A stretch of 64,000 bases of DNA from Poseidonibacter lekithochrous. GTDB taxonomy: Bacteria; Campylobacterota; Campylobacteria; Campylobacterales; Arcobacteraceae. This document shows positions 375 through 35,604 of the stretch, piece by piece; the first letter of the stretch is position 1, and the number at the start of each line of letters is the position of its first letter. The translations under genes were made by a program, and so were the position numbers. The stretch is taken from NCBI RefSeq assembly GCF_013283835.1, contig NZ_CP054052.1, forward strand, positions 930,001 through 994,000, in the 5' to 3' direction. The notes beneath the pieces are model-generated. The model made no database searches. It was not told the origin of the DNA and worked only from the letters and a program-made list of their open reading frames with translations.

Positions 375-716
375 TTATATTACAGCCCCCGATGCTGCCA
401 TTAGTTCTAGTGCATCATCACTCATTTTATCTTTTGACCATGGTGGTGTAAAAGTTAAACTTACATAACATTCATCTATTTCATCTACTGCTAAAGTTAC
501 ATATTTTGCTTGTTCAACCAAGGCTTCTGCAACTGGACAAGCTGGACTTGTTAGTGTCATAATAATATTACAATATAAGTAATTCTTTTTCTCTTCTAAA
601 CCAATTTCGTATATTAATCCTAAATCATAAATGTTTACTGGTATTTCTGGATCAAACACATTTTTTAGATTTTCAATTACTTTTTCTTTTATTTCTTCAA
701 TTTTTTCTTGCTCCAT
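375..716 (-). CDS. sufT: SufT / MIP18 (DUF59) family Fe-S assembly factor
   Basis: This 113-residue protein belongs to the MIP18/DUF59 family, which helps Fe-S cluster maturation and carrier function. It has the family core FDPEIPVNIYDLGLIY near residues 21-36, and TSPACPVAEAL around 56-66 containing the conserved Cys. The FTPPWSKDKMSDDA segment near the C-terminus is also typical. It is the last gene of the minus-strand suf operon, 12 bases after sufE, so it should be made with the SUF machinery. The length is normal for the family. The symbol rests on operon position; a general MIP18-like role is the safe reading. Confidence 0.88.
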   Translation of the reverse strand: MEQEKIEEIKEKVIENLKNVFDPEIPVNIYDLGLIYEIGLEEKKNYLYCNIIMTLTSPACPVAEALVEQAKYVTLAVDEIDECYVSLTFTPPWSKDKMSDDALELMAASGAVI

Positions 717-728
717 AATTCATCCTAT

Positions 729-1136
729 TTATGCTTTTAATGCATACTCTTTTATTTTTTTAATCATTCCAATTACTCCACTTTGTCTATTTGGAGTAAT
801 CACTTCTGCTAATTTAAGTTCATGAACTATATCCATATCAACTTCTTTTAACTCTTCAATTGTTGCACCTGAGAATATTTCTAAAATCATAAAAACTAGA
901 CCTTTTACAATAATTGCATCAGATGTTCCATTGAAATATAAATTACCATCTTTATTTTCTACAATTAGCCAAACTTGAGAAGTACATCCATGTACTAAAT
1001 TTGCTGGAATTTGATGTGTTTCATCTAAGGGTTTTAACTTTTTACCTAGATCAATAATATATTCATATTTTGATAATTCATCTTCGAAAAAGTCTAAATC
1101 TTCTTTTATTTGTTCTACTTTAGTTTCTATGCTCAT
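729..1136 (-). CDS. sufE: SufE-family cysteine desulfurase activator
   Basis: A 135-residue SufE-like protein. SufE accepts persulfide sulfur from SufS on a conserved Cys and passes it to SufB. That Cys is visible in LVHGCTSQVWL, residues about 48-58. The tail (GLSPNRQSGV-like motif, here ITPNRQSGVIGMI) is typical of the family. It lies 8 bases downstream of sufS and 12 bases upstream of sufT in one operon. Its ATG is well placed after AGGATAAAAA. Length and motifs agree with the family. Confidence 0.93.
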   Translation of the reverse strand: MSIETKVEQIKEDLDFFEDELSKYEYIIDLGKKLKPLDETHQIPANLVHGCTSQVWLIVENKDGNLYFNGTSDAIIVKGLVFMILEIFSGATIEELKEVDMDIVHELKLAEVITPNRQSGVIGMIKKIKEYALKA

Positions 1137-1144
1137 TTTTTATC

Positions 1145-2329
1145 CTAATCTTTTAACATACTTATTGCTTTTTTTAATGCAAGAATTAATTTATCAATAT
1201 CAGTGTAGTTATTATAAAAAGCAAGAGATACTCTAATCGTACCTTTTATTCCTAGTTGTTTCATAATAGGTTGGGCACAATGATGTCCAACTCTAAGAGC
1301 TATTTTCATTTTGTCAACTAAGATTCCAACATCATCATGGATTAAACCTTTTATATTAAAACTTCTGCTACCTACTGAATCTTCTATGTCATTATAAAGT
1401 TCAATATCTGGTATTTCTCTTAATCTTTTATCTAAATATGTATAAACATCTTTTTCTATTGTCTCAATATTTTCATATCCAACATGTTTTATATACTCTA
1501 AGGCTTGAGCAAAACCAATTACTCCTGCAATATTTTGAGTTCCAGCTTCAAACATATATGGTGAATCTAATAGAGTTGAACCGTGATAATCAACTTCATG
1601 AATTGTAGCTCCACCTGTTTGGTATGGTAATAAATCAGCTAAATGTTCTTTTTTTACATATATTGCACCAACTCCTGTTGGTCCAAAAGTTTTATGTGCT
1701 GATATTGCAAAGAAATCAACATCTAAATCTTGAACATCTACTTTCATATGGGCTAAACTTTGAGCTCCGTCTATCATAACAACAGCGCCATATTTATGTG
1801 CTAATCTTGTTATTTCTTTTATATCATGTATTTTTCCAAAGGCATTAGAAATATGAGTAACTGAAACAAAAGCATTTTTATTTTGACTTAGGAGTTTTTC
1901 AAAGTGATCAAAATCAAAAGAAAGATTTTCATCACACTTTACAACCTCTAATCCTTTTCCAATTGTTCTGCCTTGCATATGCCAAGGAACGATATTAGAG
2001 TGATGCTCTAAAGAAGAAATAATTACAGTTTCATATTTACTTACAAAAGAAGATGCTATAAAATTTATTGACTCACTTACACCTTTAGTGAATATAATTT
2101 CTTCATTTCCTGAAGCATTAATAAACTCTTTTAATATTTTTCTTGCACCTTCATAATTTGTTGTTGCTTTATTAGCATCTCCAAAATTACTTCTATGTGT
2201 ATTTGCACAATATTTTTCATAATATTCAACTTGTGCATCAATCACACATTGTGGTTTTTGAGTTGTAGCTCCATTATCTAAATATGCAATTTCAGAATTC
2301 TTAAAATAAGGGAAATCCTTTTTAAACAT
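1145..2329 (-). CDS. sufS: Cysteine desulfurase SufS (group II)
   Basis: This 394-residue PLP enzyme removes sulfur from cysteine, giving alanine and an enzyme persulfide that SufE collects. The PLP lysine is Lys213 in SAHKTFGPTG. The catalytic cysteine is Cys351 in RVGHHCAQP, the group II context, unlike the longer flexible loop seen in the NifS encoded at 7594. Its start overlaps the sufD end by 8 bases, indicating translational coupling in the suf operon. Full length, with no missing key residue. Confidence 0.95.
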   Translation of the reverse strand: MFKKDFPYFKNSEIAYLDNGATTQKPQCVIDAQVEYYEKYCANTHRSNFGDANKATTNYEGARKILKEFINASGNEEIIFTKGVSESINFIASSFVSKYETVIISSLEHHSNIVPWHMQGRTIGKGLEVVKCDENLSFDFDHFEKLLSQNKNAFVSVTHISNAFGKIHDIKEITRLAHKYGAVVMIDGAQSLAHMKVDVQDLDVDFFAISAHKTFGPTGVGAIYVKKEHLADLLPYQTGGATIHEVDYHGSTLLDSPYMFEAGTQNIAGVIGFAQALEYIKHVGYENIETIEKDVYTYLDKRLREIPDIELYNDIEDSVGSRSFNIKGLIHDDVGILVDKMKIALRVGHHCAQPIMKQLGIKGTIRVSLAFYNNYTDIDKLILALKKAISMLKD

Positions 2330-3356
2330 ATTTGCTCCTTGAATAATCTTTGATAAATTCTTTTATTAATATATCATTTATATTATCATATATTTGGCTT
2401 TCAAAAGCTTTTAAAAGCATATCATAAGCCTTTTGTTTTGGTATTCCTCTTGATTGAAGATATAACAATTGTTCTTTATCTAATGTTCCCGTTGTAGCTC
2501 CATGGCTAGCTTCTAATTCATCAATTAAAATCTCTAAATGAGGTTGTGCGTAAATACTTGCATCATCACTTAATAAAATTGTATTAGAGTTTTGAAATGC
2601 TTTTGAAAACAAAGCATTTGGATTTACAATTGATTTAGCTTTAAATACTGCTTTTGCTTCATCTTTTAGTGAATGTTTAAAATTAATATCACTAGTTGAA
2701 CTTTCATTATTGTGAACAGTTTTAATCAAATTTGCTGTATTAGCAGCATTTTGTGATTTTACTAAACCATTTAGATTATATTCAATATTTTTATTATCAA
2801 TAATGTTTATATAGTTGTTTACAACAAATCCAATTCCTAATTCAAAACTAGTAAATTTCACTTTTGAATCATCATCTTGTGTAAAATTAGCATTATATAA
2901 AAGTGAATTGTTTTCACTAATATGTTGAATTTTTGCATATTCAAAATTAGCATTCTTTTCTATATTAAAACTTCTATTTACACTATAAGCACTATTTTCT
3001 GAACTATTAGTAAATACTTCTATTAGTGAGGCTGTAGCACCTTCTTTCACTTCGACTTTTAGTGAATTTACATAAAAAGTATCATCTTCTTTAATTTTGT
3101 GAATTAAACATAAAGGTTCTGGAATATTAGAGTTAATAGTTAAAACTATTTGTTTATCATCAAAATTTCTAGTTATATCAAATAATGAATTTTCATAAAC
3201 TGTTTCATCCTTAATACTTTTTAATCCCATAATATCAAATTCATATGTTTCAATGTTTTTAAATTCACTTGTAAAAAGATTTTTAAAATCTACTTTTTTG
3301 AACTCTTCATCATATTTTGAAGGAAGGTTTAAACCTTCAATATCAATTATTCTCAT
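2322..3356 (-). CDS. sufD: SufD, scaffold partner in the SufBCD complex
   Basis: A 344-residue SufD-like protein. SufD pairs with SufB and SufC in the SufBC2D scaffold on which new Fe-S clusters form. The N-terminal 220 residues are divergent, as is usual for SufD. The C-terminal region carries the family signature: SDDASIYAQPHLEI, then DELEASHGATTG and LYLQSRGI. The gene overlaps sufC by 14 bases and sufS by 8. The ATG follows AGGAATTAAAG. SufD of this group is shorter than the E. coli protein (about 420 residues). Confidence 0.92.
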   Translation of the reverse strand: MRIIDIEGLNLPSKYDEEFKKVDFKNLFTSEFKNIETYEFDIMGLKSIKDETVYENSLFDITRNFDDKQIVLTINSNIPEPLCLIHKIKEDDTFYVNSLKVEVKEGATASLIEVFTNSSENSAYSVNRSFNIEKNANFEYAKIQHISENNSLLYNANFTQDDDSKVKFTSFELGIGFVVNNYINIIDNKNIEYNLNGLVKSQNAANTANLIKTVHNNESSTSDINFKHSLKDEAKAVFKAKSIVNPNALFSKAFQNSNTILLSDDASIYAQPHLEILIDELEASHGATTGTLDKEQLLYLQSRGIPKQKAYDMLLKAFESQIYDNINDILIKEFIKDYSRSKYV

Positions 3357-4098
3357 CTTTAATTCCTATTCCTTCATAACCTTTTTTATCAAGTTCTAAA
3401 GCAAGATTATAATCTCCAGTTTTTACAATTTTTCCATCATTTAAAATATGTACATAATCTGGTTTAATTAATTCTAATAATCTATCATAATGAGTAATCA
3501 TTAATACTGATTTTTTACCATCTAACATTGCATTAATTACATTTGCAACAGTTTTAATTGCATCAACATCTAATCCTGAATCAATTTCATCTAACATGAT
3601 TAAATCTGGATTTAGTAATAAAAGCTGAACTAATTCATTTCTTTTTTTCTCACCACCACTGAATCCATCATTTAAATCTCTTTGTAGTAGTTTTCTATCA
3701 ATATCATATTTTGAAGTCTCTTCTTTAATATGTTTTAAAAACTGCATAGCATCGATTTCTTCTTCACCATTATAAGTTCTTTTTTCATTTAAAGCTGTTT
3801 TTAGGAAGTAACTATTATTTACTCCAGGAACTTCAACAGGATTTTGGAAACTCATAAAGATACCTTCATTAGCTCTTTGGGCAACATCTAGTTCTAATAA
3901 GTCTTTCTTTTTATATGTTACAGAACCTTCTGTTACAACACAGTCATAATGGGCACTAAGAGTTTTAACTAAAGTGGATTTTCCTGCACCATTTATTCCC
4001 ATAAGCGCATGAACTTCACCATCTTTGATATTTAAATCTAGGCCTTTTAAAATTTCTTTATCGTTAATATTTACTTTTAAATTTTTTATTTCTAACAT
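3343..4098 (-). CDS. sufC: SufC, ABC-type ATPase of the SUF system
   Basis: This ATPase energises cluster assembly on SufB/SufD. From the ATG at 4098 it is 251 residues. The Walker A is GINGAGKST (residues 34-42), the ABC signature is FSGGEKKRNE, and the Walker B is LIMLDEIDSGLD. An in-frame GTG at 4110 would add four residues but has no ribosome site; the ATG has GGA eight bases upstream. It lies 20 bases after sufB and overlaps sufD. Confidence 0.95.
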   Translation of the reverse strand: MLEIKNLKVNINDKEILKGLDLNIKDGEVHALMGINGAGKSTLVKTLSAHYDCVVTEGSVTYKKKDLLELDVAQRANEGIFMSFQNPVEVPGVNNSYFLKTALNEKRTYNGEEEIDAMQFLKHIKEETSKYDIDRKLLQRDLNDGFSGGEKKRNELVQLLLLNPDLIMLDEIDSGLDVDAIKTVANVINAMLDGKKSVLMITHYDRLLELIKPDYVHILNDGKIVKTGDYNLALELDKKGYEGIGIKDENN

Positions 4099-4118
4099 AG
4101 TATTTTCCACGTATTGGT

Positions 4119-5555
4119 TTAACCAACACTTCCTTCTAATGATATATTTAATAATTCTTTTGCTTCTGCTGCAAATTCCATAGGAAGTTCTTTTAAAACC
4201 TCTTTACAAAAACCATTTACAATCATAGATACGGCATTCTCTGCGCTAATACCTCTTTGTTGTACATAGAATAATTGCTCATCTGAAATTTTAGAAGTTG
4301 TAGCTTCATGTTCTATTTGAGCACTCATATTTTTTATTTCATGATAAGGATAGGTATGGGCATTACATGTATTCCCTATTAGTAATGAATCACATTCAGA
4401 GATGTTTCTTGCATTATGTGCATTTTTCCCAACTCTTACTAATCCTCTGTATGCATTAACTCCATGCATTGCTGAAATACCTTTAGATATTATAGTTGAT
4501 TTTGTATTTTTTCCTAAGTGAATCATTTTTGTTCCAGTATCAGCTTGTTGAGCTTTTGAAGATATGGCAACAGAATAAAATTCACCAACAGAATTATCAC
4601 CTTTTAAAACACATGAAGGATATTTCCATGTTAAAGATGAACCTGTCTCAACTTGTGTCCATGATATTTTTGAATTATCACCTTGGCATAAACCTCTTTT
4701 TGTAACGAAGTTTAAAATACCACCTTTTCCAGTTTCATCACCTGGATACCAGTTTTGAATAGTTGAATATTTTATTTGTGCATCTTTTAGGGCAACTAAT
4801 TCTACGACTGCGGCATGAAGTGGTCTTTCATCTCTACTTGGAGCGGAACAGCCTTCATTATATGAAACGTAAGAACCTTCATCAGCTATGATAATAGTTC
4901 TTTCAAATTGACCTGTATCTAAGGCATTGATTCTAAAGTAAGTTGATAACTCCATTGGACAGTGAGTATTTGGTGGAATATATACAAAACTTCCATCTGT
5001 AAATACTGCCGAGTTTAAACAGGCAAAATAATTATCTCCCACTGGAACTACTGAAGCCAAATATTTTTTTAGAATTTCTGGATGATTGTTTGCGGCTTCT
5101 GAAATAGAACAGAAGATAATTCCTAATTTTTCTAACTCATCTTGATATGTTGTTTTAACTGATACTGAATCAAATACAGCATCAACTGCAACACCTGCAA
5201 GTTGCTTTTGCTCTTCAAGTGGAATCCCTAACTTCTCATATGTTTTTAAAATCTCAGGGTCTACTTCATCTAGTGAATCTAAAGCTTTTTTAGGTGCTGA
5301 ATAATATGCGATATCTTGGTAATCGATTTTTGGATATTTTAAATTTGCCCAAGATGGCTCACTCATTTTTTGCCAACGCTTAAATGCTTTTAGTCTAAAG
5401 TCAAGTAACCATGAAGGTTCTTCTTTTTTTGCTGATATTGCTTTTATAACATTTTCATTTAATCCCTTAGCAAAAGTATCACTTTGTACTAAAGTCTCAA
5501 ATCCTAATTTATAATCACTATTTATAACGTCATGTAGCTGTTTGTTTTTGCTCAT
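4119..5555 (-). CDS. sufB: SufB, Fe-S cluster scaffold
   Basis: SufB is the main scaffold of SufBC2D, receiving sulfur from SufE. From the ATG at 5555 the protein is 478 residues. It contains [36 protein letters not shown] and the C-terminal [25 protein letters not shown], all hallmarks of SufB. A TTG at 5567 is in frame, but the TTGGAG there is better read as the ribosome site for the ATG. This is the first gene of the suf operon. Two dyad operators at 5586-5604 and 5644-5662 precede it, one of which recurs before nifS. Confidence 0.95.
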
Positions 5556-5585
5556 AACAGACTCCAAATTATGTTGAATTTTAAA

Positions 5586-5604
5586 TAGGACAATATTTGT
5601 CCTA
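5586..5604. promoter_or_regulatory. Fe-S regulon operator, suf proximal site
   Basis: TAGGACAA-TAT-TTGTCCTA is a perfect 8-3-8 inverted repeat ending 31 bases upstream of the sufB ATG. Its layout matches two other sites (5644-5662 and 7484-7502) in front of Fe-S assembly operons. The position close to the start suits a repressor. An Rrf2/IscR-type regulator is a plausible binder, but that is inference. Confidence 0.7.
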
Positions 5605-5643
5605 AATTCAATATAACAGTAAAATAATTAAAAAAAACTTAAA

Positions 5644-5662
5644 TAGGATAAAATTTGTCTTG
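5644..5662. promoter_or_regulatory. Fe-S regulon operator, suf distal site
   Basis: An imperfect 8-3-8 dyad, TAGGATAA-AAT-TTGTCTTG. On the sufB sense strand, bases 5661-5640 are identical over 22 bases to 7485-7506 upstream of nifS. This exact reuse, in an otherwise unrelated leader, is strong evidence for a shared regulatory site. Confidence 0.7.
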
Positions 5663-5689
5663 TTTAAAAAGAACTAGAATAAATTAAAT

Positions 5690-6481
5690 TTATTTAATAT
5701 TGTTTTCTAGTCTTTTTGTATAATAAGAAATAGGGTAAGTAAGTGCTAAATACCCAATAGCTAGGGGAATATAACTCTCTAAAGTTGAATAAGTAATAGC
5801 ATCAACTTCTTGTGCATTCATAGTAAATTCACTAATAGCAATAATAGATAATAGTGAAGAATCTTTGATAATAGAAGCAAATTGACCTGTTAATGCAGGC
5901 AACATTCTTTTAAAAGCCTGAGGAAAGATAATATATCTATACATCTGAAAATTTGACATTCCAAGACTTAAACTTGTTTCAAATTGTTCTTTCTCAATTG
6001 ATTGAATTGCAGCTCTAATAATCTCAGATACATAAGCTCCTGAAAAAATAGCAAGTATAAATGTTCCTACTATATATCTATTTTCAAAACCTAAGTTATT
6101 TGCAAATACATAAAAGAAAATAAGTATCTGTACTAAAAGAGGAGTTCCTCTAATAATTTCAATATAAAATCTTGAAAAAAATCTTAATATGATTACTTTT
6201 GAGTTTTGTGCATAAGCAAAAAATAGACCAATAATAAAACTAAGAATCAAAGCAAAAAATGAGATTATAATAGTCATTATAAAACCATTAATAAACTTTT
6301 GTTTGTATTCATATACATGAGCCCAGTTAAAGTTATATGAAATATTTGAAAACATCAAATAAATAGGAGTAATAACAATTATTGCTAAAAATAGAAGATT
6401 GAAGAAATAAACTCCCCTTGATAGGGAGTTTGTTTTTTTATAATTCAATTCATTTATAAATAAGTTTTTAAATTTAAAAAT
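5690..6481 (-). CDS. Polar amino-acid ABC transporter permease (HisM family), ATT start
   Basis: This inner-membrane permease carries several hydrophobic segments and the conserved EAA-loop region (SLGMSNFQMYRYIIFPQAFKR). It works with the binding protein encoded just upstream. The frame is open back to the TAG of that gene. The first usual start, TTG at 6448, has no ribosome site. ATT at 6481 lies seven bases after AGGA and gives 263 residues beginning MFKFKNLF, a plausible cytosolic N-terminus. No ATPase gene is nearby; the next gene downstream is sufB. Family is sure, start is likely, and the substrate (perhaps cystine, given the Fe-S neighbours) is inference. Confidence 0.85.
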   Translation of the reverse strand: MFKFKNLFINELNYKKTNSLSRGVYFFNLLFLAIIVITPIYLMFSNISYNFNWAHVYEYKQKFINGFIMTIIISFFALILSFIIGLFFAYAQNSKVIILRFFSRFYIEIIRGTPLLVQILIFFYVFANNLGFENRYIVGTFILAIFSGAYVSEIIRAAIQSIEKEQFETSLSLGMSNFQMYRYIIFPQAFKRMLPALTGQFASIIKDSSLLSIIAISEFTMNAQEVDAITYSTLESYIPLAIGYLALTYPISYYTKRLENNIK

Positions 6482-6490
6482 AATTTGTTC

Positions 6491-7294
6491 CTAGAAAAAG
6501 AATGGGATATTTAACTCATCAAAAGTAGCTTTTGCTTCTTTTAAATGTTTATTTGCAAAAGTTGCAAATGTACCATCTTCTTTTGCTTTTGTAATAAATG
6601 CATCAACTTTAGTTTTTAATGGATCATTTTGTCTTAGTGCAACTCCCCAGTATTCAAAGTCAATTTGAAATGGTTTTAATAAAGCAATAGTTGTATCTTT
6701 ATGTTGTACATAGTTTTTGTAAATAGTTAATTGATCGTAAAGAAAACCATCTGCTTTCCCTTGAACTACTTCTAATACACAAGTATTTTCTTTATCAAAT
6801 ACTAAAATCTCTGCATTTTTTAAATTCTTACTTGCATATACATGTCCAGTAGAACCTTTTTTAACAGCAATCTTTTTACCTTCTACATTTAATTCGTTAA
6901 TAGAATTAACATTAGAATCTTTATTAACTAAAATTGCTAAAGAAGATTGTGCATAAGGAATTGAGAAGTCAATTGACTTTTTTCTCTCTTCTGTAATAGT
7001 CATTGATGAAATGATTAAATCAATTTTACCAGTTTTTAAAGAAGGAATTAATCCAGACCAAGCTGTATTTTCAATAACAACTTCCATTCCTAATTCTTCA
7101 CCTAGTTTTTTAGCAAAGTCTACAGATACACCTTGAGGAATACCTTCTTTGTCACTCATTTCAAAAGGAGGGTAAGCTAATTCCATTCCAACTTTTAAAA
7201 CCTTTTTCTCTTCTTTTACCTCTGTTTTGTTATCACACGCAGTAAAAAACACAGATAAAAAGCTAATCATTATGATTGATAATAGTTTTTTCAT
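6491..7294 (-). CDS. Amino-acid ABC transporter substrate-binding lipoprotein
   Basis: A 267-residue SBP_bac_3 family protein that captures an amino acid outside the inner membrane. The signal peptide ends in a lipobox, FFTAC, with lipidated Cys20. The family core is visible: MELAYPPFEM, then FAKKLGEELG, and GKIDLIISSMTITEERKKSI, typical of glutamine, arginine or cystine binders. It is first in a two-gene operon with the permease, 9 bases before that gene's probable ATT start. It is divergent from nifS across a 299-base gap. The ligand cannot be read from sequence; cystine would fit two adjacent cysteine desulfurases. Confidence 0.9.
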   Translation of the reverse strand: MKKLLSIIMISFLSVFFTACDNKTEVKEEKKVLKVGMELAYPPFEMSDKEGIPQGVSVDFAKKLGEELGMEVVIENTAWSGLIPSLKTGKIDLIISSMTITEERKKSIDFSIPYAQSSLAILVNKDSNVNSINELNVEGKKIAVKKGSTGHVYASKNLKNAEILVFDKENTCVLEVVQGKADGFLYDQLTIYKNYVQHKDTTIALLKPFQIDFEYWGVALRQNDPLKTKVDAFITKAKEDGTFATFANKHLKEAKATFDELNIPFFF

Positions 7295-7483
7295 AAATTT
7301 CCTTATTTAATAATTGTTATATTATCCCATACTAAACTTAACATTTGTTTATTAAAAGTCGATTTATTTATCAAAATTTGAATATAATATTCGCGAATTT
7401 TATAATTTATATTAATAATATTTATATTTACTTTTACTGTATTGTGTTACAAAATGGAATAAATTTTTTCTTGGAAAGACAAT

Positions 7484-7502
7484 TAAGACAAATTTTATCC
7501 TA
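7484..7502. promoter_or_regulatory. Fe-S regulon operator upstream of nifS
   Basis: TAAGACAA-ATT-TTATCCTA has the same 8-3-8 layout as the two suf operators. Bases 7485-7506 are identical to the suf distal site read on the sufB sense strand. It sits just upstream of a TAGAAT -10-like hexamer, so a bound protein would cover the -35 region. Confidence 0.7.
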
Positions 7503-7509
7503 TTTAGAT

Positions 7510-7515
7510 TAGAAT
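7510..7515 (+). promoter_or_regulatory. Probable nifS -10 element
   Basis: TAGAAT lies eight bases after the operator dyad and about 80 bases before the nifS ATG. It is one mismatch from TATAAT. No clear -35 hexamer is seen, as is usual in this group. Confidence 0.4.
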
Positions 7516-7566: not shown

Positions 7567-8793
<1,227 letters not shown>

Positions 8794-8823: not shown

Positions 8824-9804
8824 ATGGCAAAAAATGATTTAATTAGCGGATCTATTTGGGATGAATATTCAGACCAAGTTGTAAATAGAATGAACAACCC
8901 TCAACACCAAGGTGAAATTACAGAAGAGAGAGCAAAAGAATTAGGAACAAAATTAATTGTTGCTGACTTCGGTGCTGAATCATGTGGTGACGCAGTAAGA
9001 TTATACTGGGCTGTAAATGAAACAACAGATGAGATTGTTGAATCTAAATTCAAATCTTTTGGTTGTGGTACTGCAATTGCATCTTCTGATGTTATGGCTG
9101 AGTTATGTGTTGGTAAAACTGTAGATCAAGCTGTAAAAATTACTAATATTGATGTTGAATTTGCTTTAAGAGATAATGCAGATACTCCAGCTGTTCCACC
9201 TCAAAAAATGCACTGTTCAGTTATGGCTTATGATGTTATCAAAAAAGCTGCATCTGAGTATAAAGGTGTAGATATGGAATCTTTTGAAACTGAAGTTATT
9301 GTATGTGAATGTGCAAGAGTTTCATTAGCTACATTAAGAGAAGTTATTAGAATTAATGACTTAAAAACTGTAGAAGAAATTACTGACTTTACTAAAGCAG
9401 GAGCTTTCTGTAAATCATGTATTAAGCCTGGTGGGCATGAAGAAAAAGAATATTACTTAGTTGATATTTTAGCTGACACTAGAGCACAAATGGAAGAAGA
9501 AAAATTAAAAACTGCTGCAGATGCTTCTGAATCTGGAGAATTAACATTTGATAAAATGACTTTAGTTCAAAGAATTAAAGCAATTGATACATTATTAGAT
9601 GAAGAAATCAGACCAATGTTAGCAATGGATGGTGGAAACATGGAAATTATTGATATTAAAGAAAACATTCCTCACTATGATTTATACATTAGATACTTAG
9701 GTGCTTGTTCAGGATGTGCGTCTGGTTCGTCTGGAACTTTATATGCAATCGAATCTGTATTAAAACAAAAAATTGATGAAAACTTAAGAGTTTTACCAAT
9801 CTAA
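8824..9804 (+). CDS. nifU: NifU-type modular Fe-S scaffold
   Basis: A 326-residue three-domain scaffold. The N-terminal IscU-like domain has its three cysteines in GAESCGD, FGCGTAI and KMHCSV. The central [2Fe-2S] domain has CECAR and FCKSCIKPGG. The C-terminal Nfu domain has the CxxC of GACSGCASGS. It receives sulfur from the adjacent NifS and assembles clusters for apoproteins. The ATG follows AAAGGAAAG. A strong hairpin terminator lies 40 bases after the stop, closing the nifSU operon. Confidence 0.96.
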   Translation: MAKNDLISGSIWDEYSDQVVNRMNNPQHQGEITEERAKELGTKLIVADFGAESCGDAVRLYWAVNETTDEIVESKFKSFGCGTAIASSDVMAELCVGKTVDQAVKITNIDVEFALRDNADTPAVPPQKMHCSVMAYDVIKKAASEYKGVDMESFETEVIVCECARVSLATLREVIRINDLKTVEEITDFTKAGAFCKSCIKPGGHEEKEYYLVDILADTRAQMEEEKLKTAADASESGELTFDKMTLVQRIKAIDTLLDEEIRPMLAMDGGNMEIIDIKENIPHYDLYIRYLGACSGCASGSSGTLYAIESVLKQKIDENLRVLPI

Positions 9805-33869: not shown

Positions 33870-35604
33870 CAATTCCATTTGCTAATAATTTCTGGTATTT
33901 AGTACTATAAAGCCTTTTACTCTCAGTTGGATGTGAAATATATCCTAACTCTATTAGAATAGAAGGCATTTGAGCACCTACAAGGACCCAAAATGGTCCT
34001 TCTCTTACTCCTGAGTCTTTTACTCCTCTAAAGCTCTTTTTAACTGATTGTAGCATTCCAGCTTGTGTATCAATAGCAAGTTTATGAGAGGCTGTAATTC
34101 TAGGTCTATTTAGTGATTCTAAAAATACTTTTTTAGTTGAATTACTCATTTTTCTAATATCAGTTCTATTCTCTTTTGCTGCAACTCTTTTAGCTCTTTC
34201 ACTTCTTGCTGGGCTTAAGAAAAATGTTTCAATTCCTTGAATTCTATGAGCTTTACTTTTAGGAACTGAGTTTGCATGGACAGAAATAAATATATCAGCA
34301 TTCTTTTTATTAGCTAAAATAGTTCTATTATTAACTTTAATAAATCTATCTTTATGTCTTGTAAGAAAAACTTTATGACCTCTTTGTTTTAAAATACTAT
34401 ATAGATATTTTGCTACTTTTAAAGTAACAACTTTTTCATATCTTTTATTAGGTCCTACTGCTCCTACATCTTTTGCCCCATGTCCTGCATCTATAACTAT
34501 AGTTTTACTTGTGAAGTTTGCATAAGGCAGAGCAGGCGTAATGCTTGTTTGATTTGTATTTTTTAAATTAAGAATTTTGATTACCAATTCTCTTTTTTTC
34601 AAAGTATAAATAACTCTATAGTCTTTTTTATCACTTACTCTAATTCTAAGAGTTGAGTTATTCTTTTGACCAATAGAAATTTTCTCTAAACCATCTATTT
34701 TTAACTTTATTGGTTTAGCGTATTTGAACTTACCTTTTATATCAAAAATGTCTTGATATCTATTATTTGATTTATATGCAGTGTATTTTAAATCTCTATT
34801 TGAAAAGTTTTTATTAAATTGAACAACAATAGTGTTGTTTTTTGTAAACACTGTTTTGATTGAGTTTTTTCTATCAATATAAATATTTTTAAAAGTATCG
34901 CTTTTTTTAACAAAAACAGATTCATTTTTTGTTTTACTTATTATTTTTGTTTTTTTAGTAGTTTTTTTTAAATCATCAATAGAAATTACAACTTGTTTGT
35001 TATTTACCGAGAATGATGTTTTAAGATTTTTCTTATTTGCTATTACTACTCTTAATGTATCTGATTTAAATTGTCCTACAACAATTTTTTCTACACCTTT
35101 GATTTTTAATTTAGTACCTCTTACATGTGAATAAGCACCTTTTAAATCATATACATCTTTGTGTTGTGGTTTTTGTTTTAATTCAAAGAAACGAACTATA
35201 TCTTTGGAAATATTATGTGTATAATTTATTACTATAGTATTTTCAAAAGTATAAATTGATTGAATTGCATTAAACTTGTAATTAGTTTTTTTATTGTCAG
35301 TTTTTTTTACAAGAGTATTTTGTTCAATTTTTATAGGAGCAATTTTTTTACCTAGAGTTTTATTTTGCCTCTCTATTAAAATTTCTAATTTCTTTTTATC
35401 TGGAGTTGTGTTTTTGTTTAGTTTTTCACCTAGAACTATTAGTTTTTTAAGTTCTTTGATTTTTGTTTCATGATCTTTTTTTAGTACTGCTTTAAGATAA
35501 TTCATTCGTGAAGAATGATACTCATCTTTCAAATTCTCTTGTGCTAATGCAGAAAAAGAGAAAATGAATGATAAGGAAATAAGAATAAAAAATTTTTTAA
35601 AAAT
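33832..35604 (-). CDS. N-acetylmuramoyl-L-alanine amidase with AMIN repeats, ATT start
   Basis: A periplasmic cell-wall amidase. Two related AMIN-like beta units (about 90-190 and 240-340) target it to the wall. The amidase_3 domain (about 370-590) has zinc ligands in VIDAGHGAKD, NKRYEK and SVHAN and the catalytic Glu in ILIELGYISHP. The first usual start, TTG 35532, cuts off a perfect signal peptide: upstream in frame reads FKKFFILISLSFIFSFSALAQ. An ATT at 35604, seven bases after AAGGAG, gives 590 residues with that signal. An ATA at 35610 is also in frame but only one base from the ribosome site. Its start is three bases after the upstream TAA. Confidence 0.9.
   Translation of the reverse strand: MFKKFFILISLSFIFSFSALAQENLKDEYHSSRMNYLKAVLKKDHETKIKELKKLIVLGEKLNKNTTPDKKKLEILIERQNKTLGKKIAPIKIEQNTLVKKTDNKKTNYKFNAIQSIYTFENTIVINYTHNISKDIVRFFELKQKPQHKDVYDLKGAYSHVRGTKLKIKGVEKIVVGQFKSDTLRVVIANKKNLKTSFSVNNKQVVISIDDLKKTTKKTKIISKTKNESVFVKKSDTFKNIYIDRKNSIKTVFTKNNTIVVQFNKNFSNRDLKYTAYKSNNRYQDIFDIKGKFKYAKPIKLKIDGLEKISIGQKNNSTLRIRVSDKKDYRVIYTLKKRELVIKILNLKNTNQTSITPALPYANFTSKTIVIDAGHGAKDVGAVGPNKRYEKVVTLKVAKYLYSILKQRGHKVFLTRHKDRFIKVNNRTILANKKNADIFISVHANSVPKSKAHRIQGIETFFLSPARSERAKRVAAKENRTDIRKMSNSTKKVFLESLNRPRITASHKLAIDTQAGMLQSVKKSFRGVKDSGVREGPFWVLVGAQMPSILIELGYISHPTESKRLYSTKYQKLLANGIANGVDSYFSKNP

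Follow-up and report, generated by a model that had tools for sequence, protein, structure and literature searches.

Two operons for Fe-S cluster assembly, suf and nif, lie close together on the chromosome of Poseidonibacter lekithochrous, and this locus raises the question of whether one operator family controls both and, if so, which protein reads it. The stretch of DNA analyzed here, hereafter the window, comprises 64,000 nucleotides (contig NZ_CP054052.1, positions 930,001 to 994,000) and belongs to a complete chromosome of 3.57 Mb. Its assembly genes are as follows, in window coordinates.

375-716, minus strand: SUF-associated (MIP18/SufT-like) protein; TIGR02945, below cut-off
729-1136, minus strand: sufE-like; NF006792, below cut-off
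1145-2329, minus strand: sufS-like cysteine desulfurase; TIGR01979, 443.6 bits, slightly below cut-off
2322-3356, minus strand: sufD-like; TIGR01981, 186.9 bits, below cut-off
3343-4110, minus strand: sufC; TIGR01978, 337 bits, above cut-off
4119-5555, minus strand: sufB, with its ATG at 5555; NF008773, 860.9 bits, above cut-off
7594-8793, plus strand: nifS, epsilon type (TIGR03403, nifS_epsilon), 649 bits, above cut-off
8824-9804, plus strand: nifU; TIGR02000, 218 bits, below cut-off

Between the two operons, at 5690-7294, lies a polar amino acid ABC transporter whose substrate-binding protein is nearest to the cystine and lysine/arginine types, below their cut-offs. This transporter could supply cysteine to the desulfurases.

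Three probable operators at the predicted suf and nif promoters

A sequence-only reading of this region had described three dyads of 8-3-8 layout, at 5586-5604, 5644-5662 and 7484-7502, and all three are present at these coordinates. The 22-base identity that it noted between the distal suf site (5661-5640, minus strand) and the nifS site (7485-7506, plus strand) is likewise exact. Its consensus fared less well and agrees in full with a single site of the three; mismatches to TAGGACAAN3TTGTCCTA number 0, 3 and 2, in the order of the coordinates above. The conserved unit is instead a slightly asymmetric 25-mer, and the true operator, derived from one hundred sites, is the 25-bp AAWTARGACAAWWWTTRTCCTAWTT. 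The sites and the predicted promoter elements around them are listed below; the promoters, and the transcription starts from which the spans are counted, are inferred from sequence.

5583-5607, minus strand: proximal suf operator (19-bp dyad 5586-5604), overlapping the predicted transcription start, about -4 to +21
5610-5618, minus strand: predicted extended -10 of the suf operon, TGTTATATT
5641-5665, minus strand: distal suf operator (19-bp dyad 5644-5662), upstream of the predicted promoter and its -35, about -62 to -38
7481-7505, plus strand: nifS operator (19-bp dyad 7484-7502), covering the predicted -35 region, about -41 to -17
7510-7515, plus strand: predicted -10 of nifSU, TAGAAT

The dyads had been thought to occur only upstream of sufB and nifS. 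This holds within the window, where a scan returned no further good sites and the next best match, at 35060, has a score that chance alone would give, but not for the genome as a whole, in which mrp, tpx and other genes carry the operator as well.

A wider predicted regulon in the genome

When the chromosome was searched with the extended pattern TAAGACAANNNTTATCCTATTT, allowing up to three mismatches, 28 matches were found versus 6 for a reversed control, and the best of them are intergenic. They indicate a broader regulon than suf and nif, with operators at the following chromosomal positions.

162450: before mrp/ApbC, an Fe-S carrier gene
589733 (L004 1501-1519): before a 123-aa ORF and a siroheme-synthesis gene, divergent from napA
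824367: before the thiol peroxidase gene, tpx
1079043: before the superoxide reductase gene, sor
2042613: before a HAD-family gene, less certain
2423218 (L006 1294-1519; G000:C1:2423014-2423236): before a 53-aa rubredoxin gene

The 123-aa ORF is of unknown function. As the additional genes are mostly functionally related, the dyad is not a common feature of unrelated genes. Most of the weaker matches fall within coding sequence and are regarded as chance. One further match, at 81408 (AGGAGAAAAATTCTCCT), was rejected as an operator; it sits directly behind a gene and resembles a terminator. The rubredoxin operator is near-perfect, with a score of 25.7 on a matrix trained on this genome's own sites, those of the window included. 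Its orthologues in relatives lack the site, and we therefore consider rubredoxin a member of the regulon at species level only, apparently through recent gain of the operator or its loss elsewhere.

Might such repeats arise by chance, or as structural features of promoters, with no dedicated regulator? AT-rich promoters in this group are rich in weak dyads. However, the window holds three matches with at most three mismatches where 0.35 are expected (none of 100 shuffles gave three), the genome-wide excess over the reversed control points the same way, and the operator is conserved in many families of the order. We give this explanation almost no credence.

Conservation across Campylobacterales

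The operator recurs in Campylobacterales before nifS, sufB, mrp, tpx and sor. At nifS it is present in L028 and, among the nine closest Campylobacterota loci (L019-L027), in all but L026, as well as in 26 of the 31 Rrf2-bearing genomes tested, many of which belong to other families; G013, G049 and G050 carry the Rrf2 gene and have no operator at nifS. For the other targets, scores on the same matrix of at least 10, a threshold set after the scores were seen, were obtained upstream of sufB in 19/22 cases, tpx in 25/30, superoxide reductase in 22/29 and mrp in 23/30. Within Arcobacteraceae, a TATAAT-like -10 follows the operator within a few bases at mrp, tpx and nifS. The sites make up a regulon shared by Arcobacter and its relatives, most likely under an Rrf2-type regulator that acts in the manner of IscR and extends to genes for the detoxification of peroxide and superoxide.

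A candidate Rrf2 regulator

Three Rrf2 genes are encoded in the genome. Our candidate is a 133-aa protein (G000:C1:611293-611691) whose gene lies downstream of rpsO, outside the window. It matches the Rrf2 superfamily (PF02082 / TIGR00738) above cut-off, with 110.9 bits to TIGR00738 against a cut-off of 73.3, and its structural model fits CymR, IscR and RsrR chains with Z about 15 to 16 over 112-124 residues (rmsd 1.5-2.7). DNA-bound IscR is among the structures fitted (Z about 16), and by sequence, too, IscR is the nearest of the solved structures. Of the 60 Campylobacterales genomes searched, 55 have a clear orthologue; Cys91, Cys98 and Cys106 are present in all 55, and Glu8 in 53.

Two further observations connect this gene to the operator. 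First, the site occurs in the Rrf2 gene's own promoter in G021 (15.5, at 52 bp), G019 (15.1), G010 (13.5), G055 (17.3), G046 (15.1), G029 and G035, and more weakly in others, while in G052 a single operator (18.6) lies in the intergenic region between Rrf2 and mrp and is common to both genes. The expectation that an Rrf2 gene would bear the same site in its promoter is thus borne out in genomes of several genera, where the gene may be autoregulated, but not in this one or in Arcobacter proper, where the gene's own promoter is without the operator. Second, site and gene co-occur. Counted by hand at the threshold of 10 in genomes outside the own family, the operator is found in 0/12 upstream regions of Rrf2-lacking genomes and in 37/51 of those with the gene (Fisher 3.6e-6), or, by genome, in 0/4 versus 16/17 (p = 0.0008); being related, these genomes do not count as independent samples, and the completeness of G037 is only 83%. 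Within the family, G032 lacks the Rrf2 gene and retains a weak nifS site (10.6).

Taken together, the invariant cysteines of the orthologues, the own-promoter operators and the co-occurrence of gene and site strongly support the Rrf2/IscR-like regulator suggested by the sequence-only reading. We propose that the three dyads are very probably operators of this IscR-like protein, encoded elsewhere on the chromosome.

The other two Rrf2 proteins, one NsrR-like (G000:C1:2376112-2376492) and one CymR-like (G000:C1:3545265-3545546), could conceivably recognize similar dyads as members of the same family. Yet neither promoter carries the operator, the NsrR-like gene and norCB diverge from an intergenic region with a different repeated dyad, ACTACCTTNAGGTAG, and the CymR-like protein lacks the cluster cysteines, its gene lying between metY and cysK. 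A reader among these two is, in our view, very improbable. The ACTACCTTNAGGTAG dyads of the norCB region (L018 1880-2160; G000:C1 about 2376490-2376770) are likely a separate operator; the neighbors of the CymR-like gene (L016, G000:C1:3545265) are an O-acetylhomoserine sulfhydrylase-like gene and cysK.

Alternatively, the site could serve an iron or peroxide response and be read by Fur, PerR or a similar Fur-family protein, or by some other regulator. The genome holds four Fur-family genes, and a set comprising Fe-S assembly, tpx and superoxide reductase genes is compatible with an iron or oxidant regulon. None of the four Fur-family loci examined has the operator, though, and its core, GAC-N7-GTC, matches IscR type-1 sites; nor would a Fur-family reader account for operators in Rrf2 promoters or for the absence of sites where the Rrf2 gene is absent. 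We regard this possibility as improbable.

Proposed mode of regulation

The simplest reading is that the 133-aa Rrf2 regulator follows the logic of Pseudomonas aeruginosa IscR: it would occupy its sites while clusters are plentiful and leave them once clusters become damaged or scarce. Cys91, Cys98 and Cys106, perhaps with Glu8 of the partner subunit, probably ligate an Fe-S cluster in the regulator; because Asp8 of the other subunit is the fourth ligand in the [4Fe-4S] protein ScNsrR of Streptomyces coelicolor (PMC5411485), Glu8 is a reasonable candidate. In its cluster-loaded form it would bind the 25-bp site and block RNA polymerase, over the -35 region at nifS and over the transcription start and the upstream site at suf. 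Loss of the cluster through iron limitation, oxygen, superoxide or peroxide would release the regulator, and thiol peroxidase and superoxide reductase would then rise along with SUF, NifSU and the Mrp carrier. The sequence itself shows where the sites lie, how they are conserved, which genes they precede and how site and gene are linked; from there we infer binding, repression, the cluster and its signal.

The same regulator could instead activate some promoters, for example in its apo form. E. coli IscR activates the suf operon as apoprotein, and the position of the distal suf site, upstream of the predicted -35, would fit activation. Against this, both the nifS site and the proximal suf site fall on predicted promoter elements, and in sequence the sites are type-1-like rather than type-2-like. 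Activation is accordingly unlikely, with a small but real chance of applying, and repression by the cluster-loaded Rrf2 protein remains our preferred reading.

A possible counterpart in Campylobacter jejuni

In Campylobacter jejuni, Cj0883c presumably adjoins rpsO, matching the position of the Rrf2 gene here, and we take Cj0883c and CJJ81176_0891 to be the same gene. Going by annotation and this presumed position, its product is perhaps the counterpart of the 133-aa protein. Both designations are annotated as Rrf2 family (PMC11202532, PMC5438104), and the gene is among the fitness determinants of a transposon screen, with a value of -7.14 (PMC5438104). The papers searched report no function for it, and an IscR-like regulon may explain its fitness role. 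In a literature search that left subscription journals largely outside, no IscR-type regulator or operator was described for Campylobacterota, and nifS, sufB and Fe-S genes go unmentioned in a paper on the response regulator CemR in A. butzleri and C. jejuni. We see an even chance that Campylobacterales, perhaps including C. jejuni, possess a distinct Rrf2 subfamily, marked by Glu8 and three cysteines, that couples SUF, NifSU and Mrp with superoxide reduction and peroxide removal. The candidate gene, the defined 25-bp operator and the list of targets now allow direct tests of how these bacteria adjust Fe-S assembly to oxygen and iron.

Comparison with IscR and other Rrf2 regulators

The closest parallel is IscR of E. 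coli and P. aeruginosa, with which the present system shares the Rrf2 fold, three conserved cysteines, a 25-bp operator with a GAC-N7-GTC core, promoter-overlapping sites, and a regulon, here predicted, of Fe-S assembly genes, tpx and a cluster carrier. In P. aeruginosa, IscR acts as a repressor of isc, nfuA and tpx from type-1 sites lying across part or all of the -35, and inducing oxidant treatment lifts this repression (PMC6599224); both gene set and site geometry are similar here. The operator had been said to differ from the E. coli IscR site, which is correct mainly for the flanks (ATASYY in E. coli, AAWTAR here): aligned with the type-1 site ATASYYGACTRWWWYAGTCRRSTAT, it has equal length and the same GAC-N7-GTC register, with differences in the inner T/A and the flanks. 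The type-1 core GACTRWWWYAGTC is exact in some relatives only, at nifS of G040 (GACTAATTTAGTC) and G059 (GACTAAAATAGTC), where the inner T and A are kept.

IscR ligates its cluster through C92, C98, C104 and H107, with x5/x5 spacing of the cysteines (PMC6599224), whereas here the spacing is x6/x7, no His stands at +3 after the last Cys, and Glu8 replaces Arg8. The regulon would comprise NifSU and SUF with no isc operon, and, unlike iscR, the regulator gene is not beside the assembly genes. The 133-aa protein also falls well below the IscR equivalog cut-offs (TIGR02010, 75.8 of 207.55 bits; PRK10857, 51.3 of 275), and because of these scores and the other ligand spacing we describe it as IscR-like and do not file it as IscR proper.

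NsrR resembles it in combining three cysteines with an acidic residue at position 8, but has NO detoxification targets, and in this genome a separate NsrR-like gene sits at norCB with another dyad. The 133-aa protein reaches only 34.6 of 182 bits against NCBIfam NsrR, and the genes behind its operator serve Fe-S assembly and oxidant defense. RirA of Alphaproteobacteria, a [4Fe-4S] Rrf2 protein that senses iron via its cluster and represses when iron-replete (PMC10510648), would share cluster-based sensing with it but controls iron uptake; the 133-aa protein scores 55.6 bits against a cut-off of 193. Overall, these comparisons point to an IscR-like regulon run by a distinct Rrf2 subfamily, with putative operator binding and a putative Fe-S cluster.
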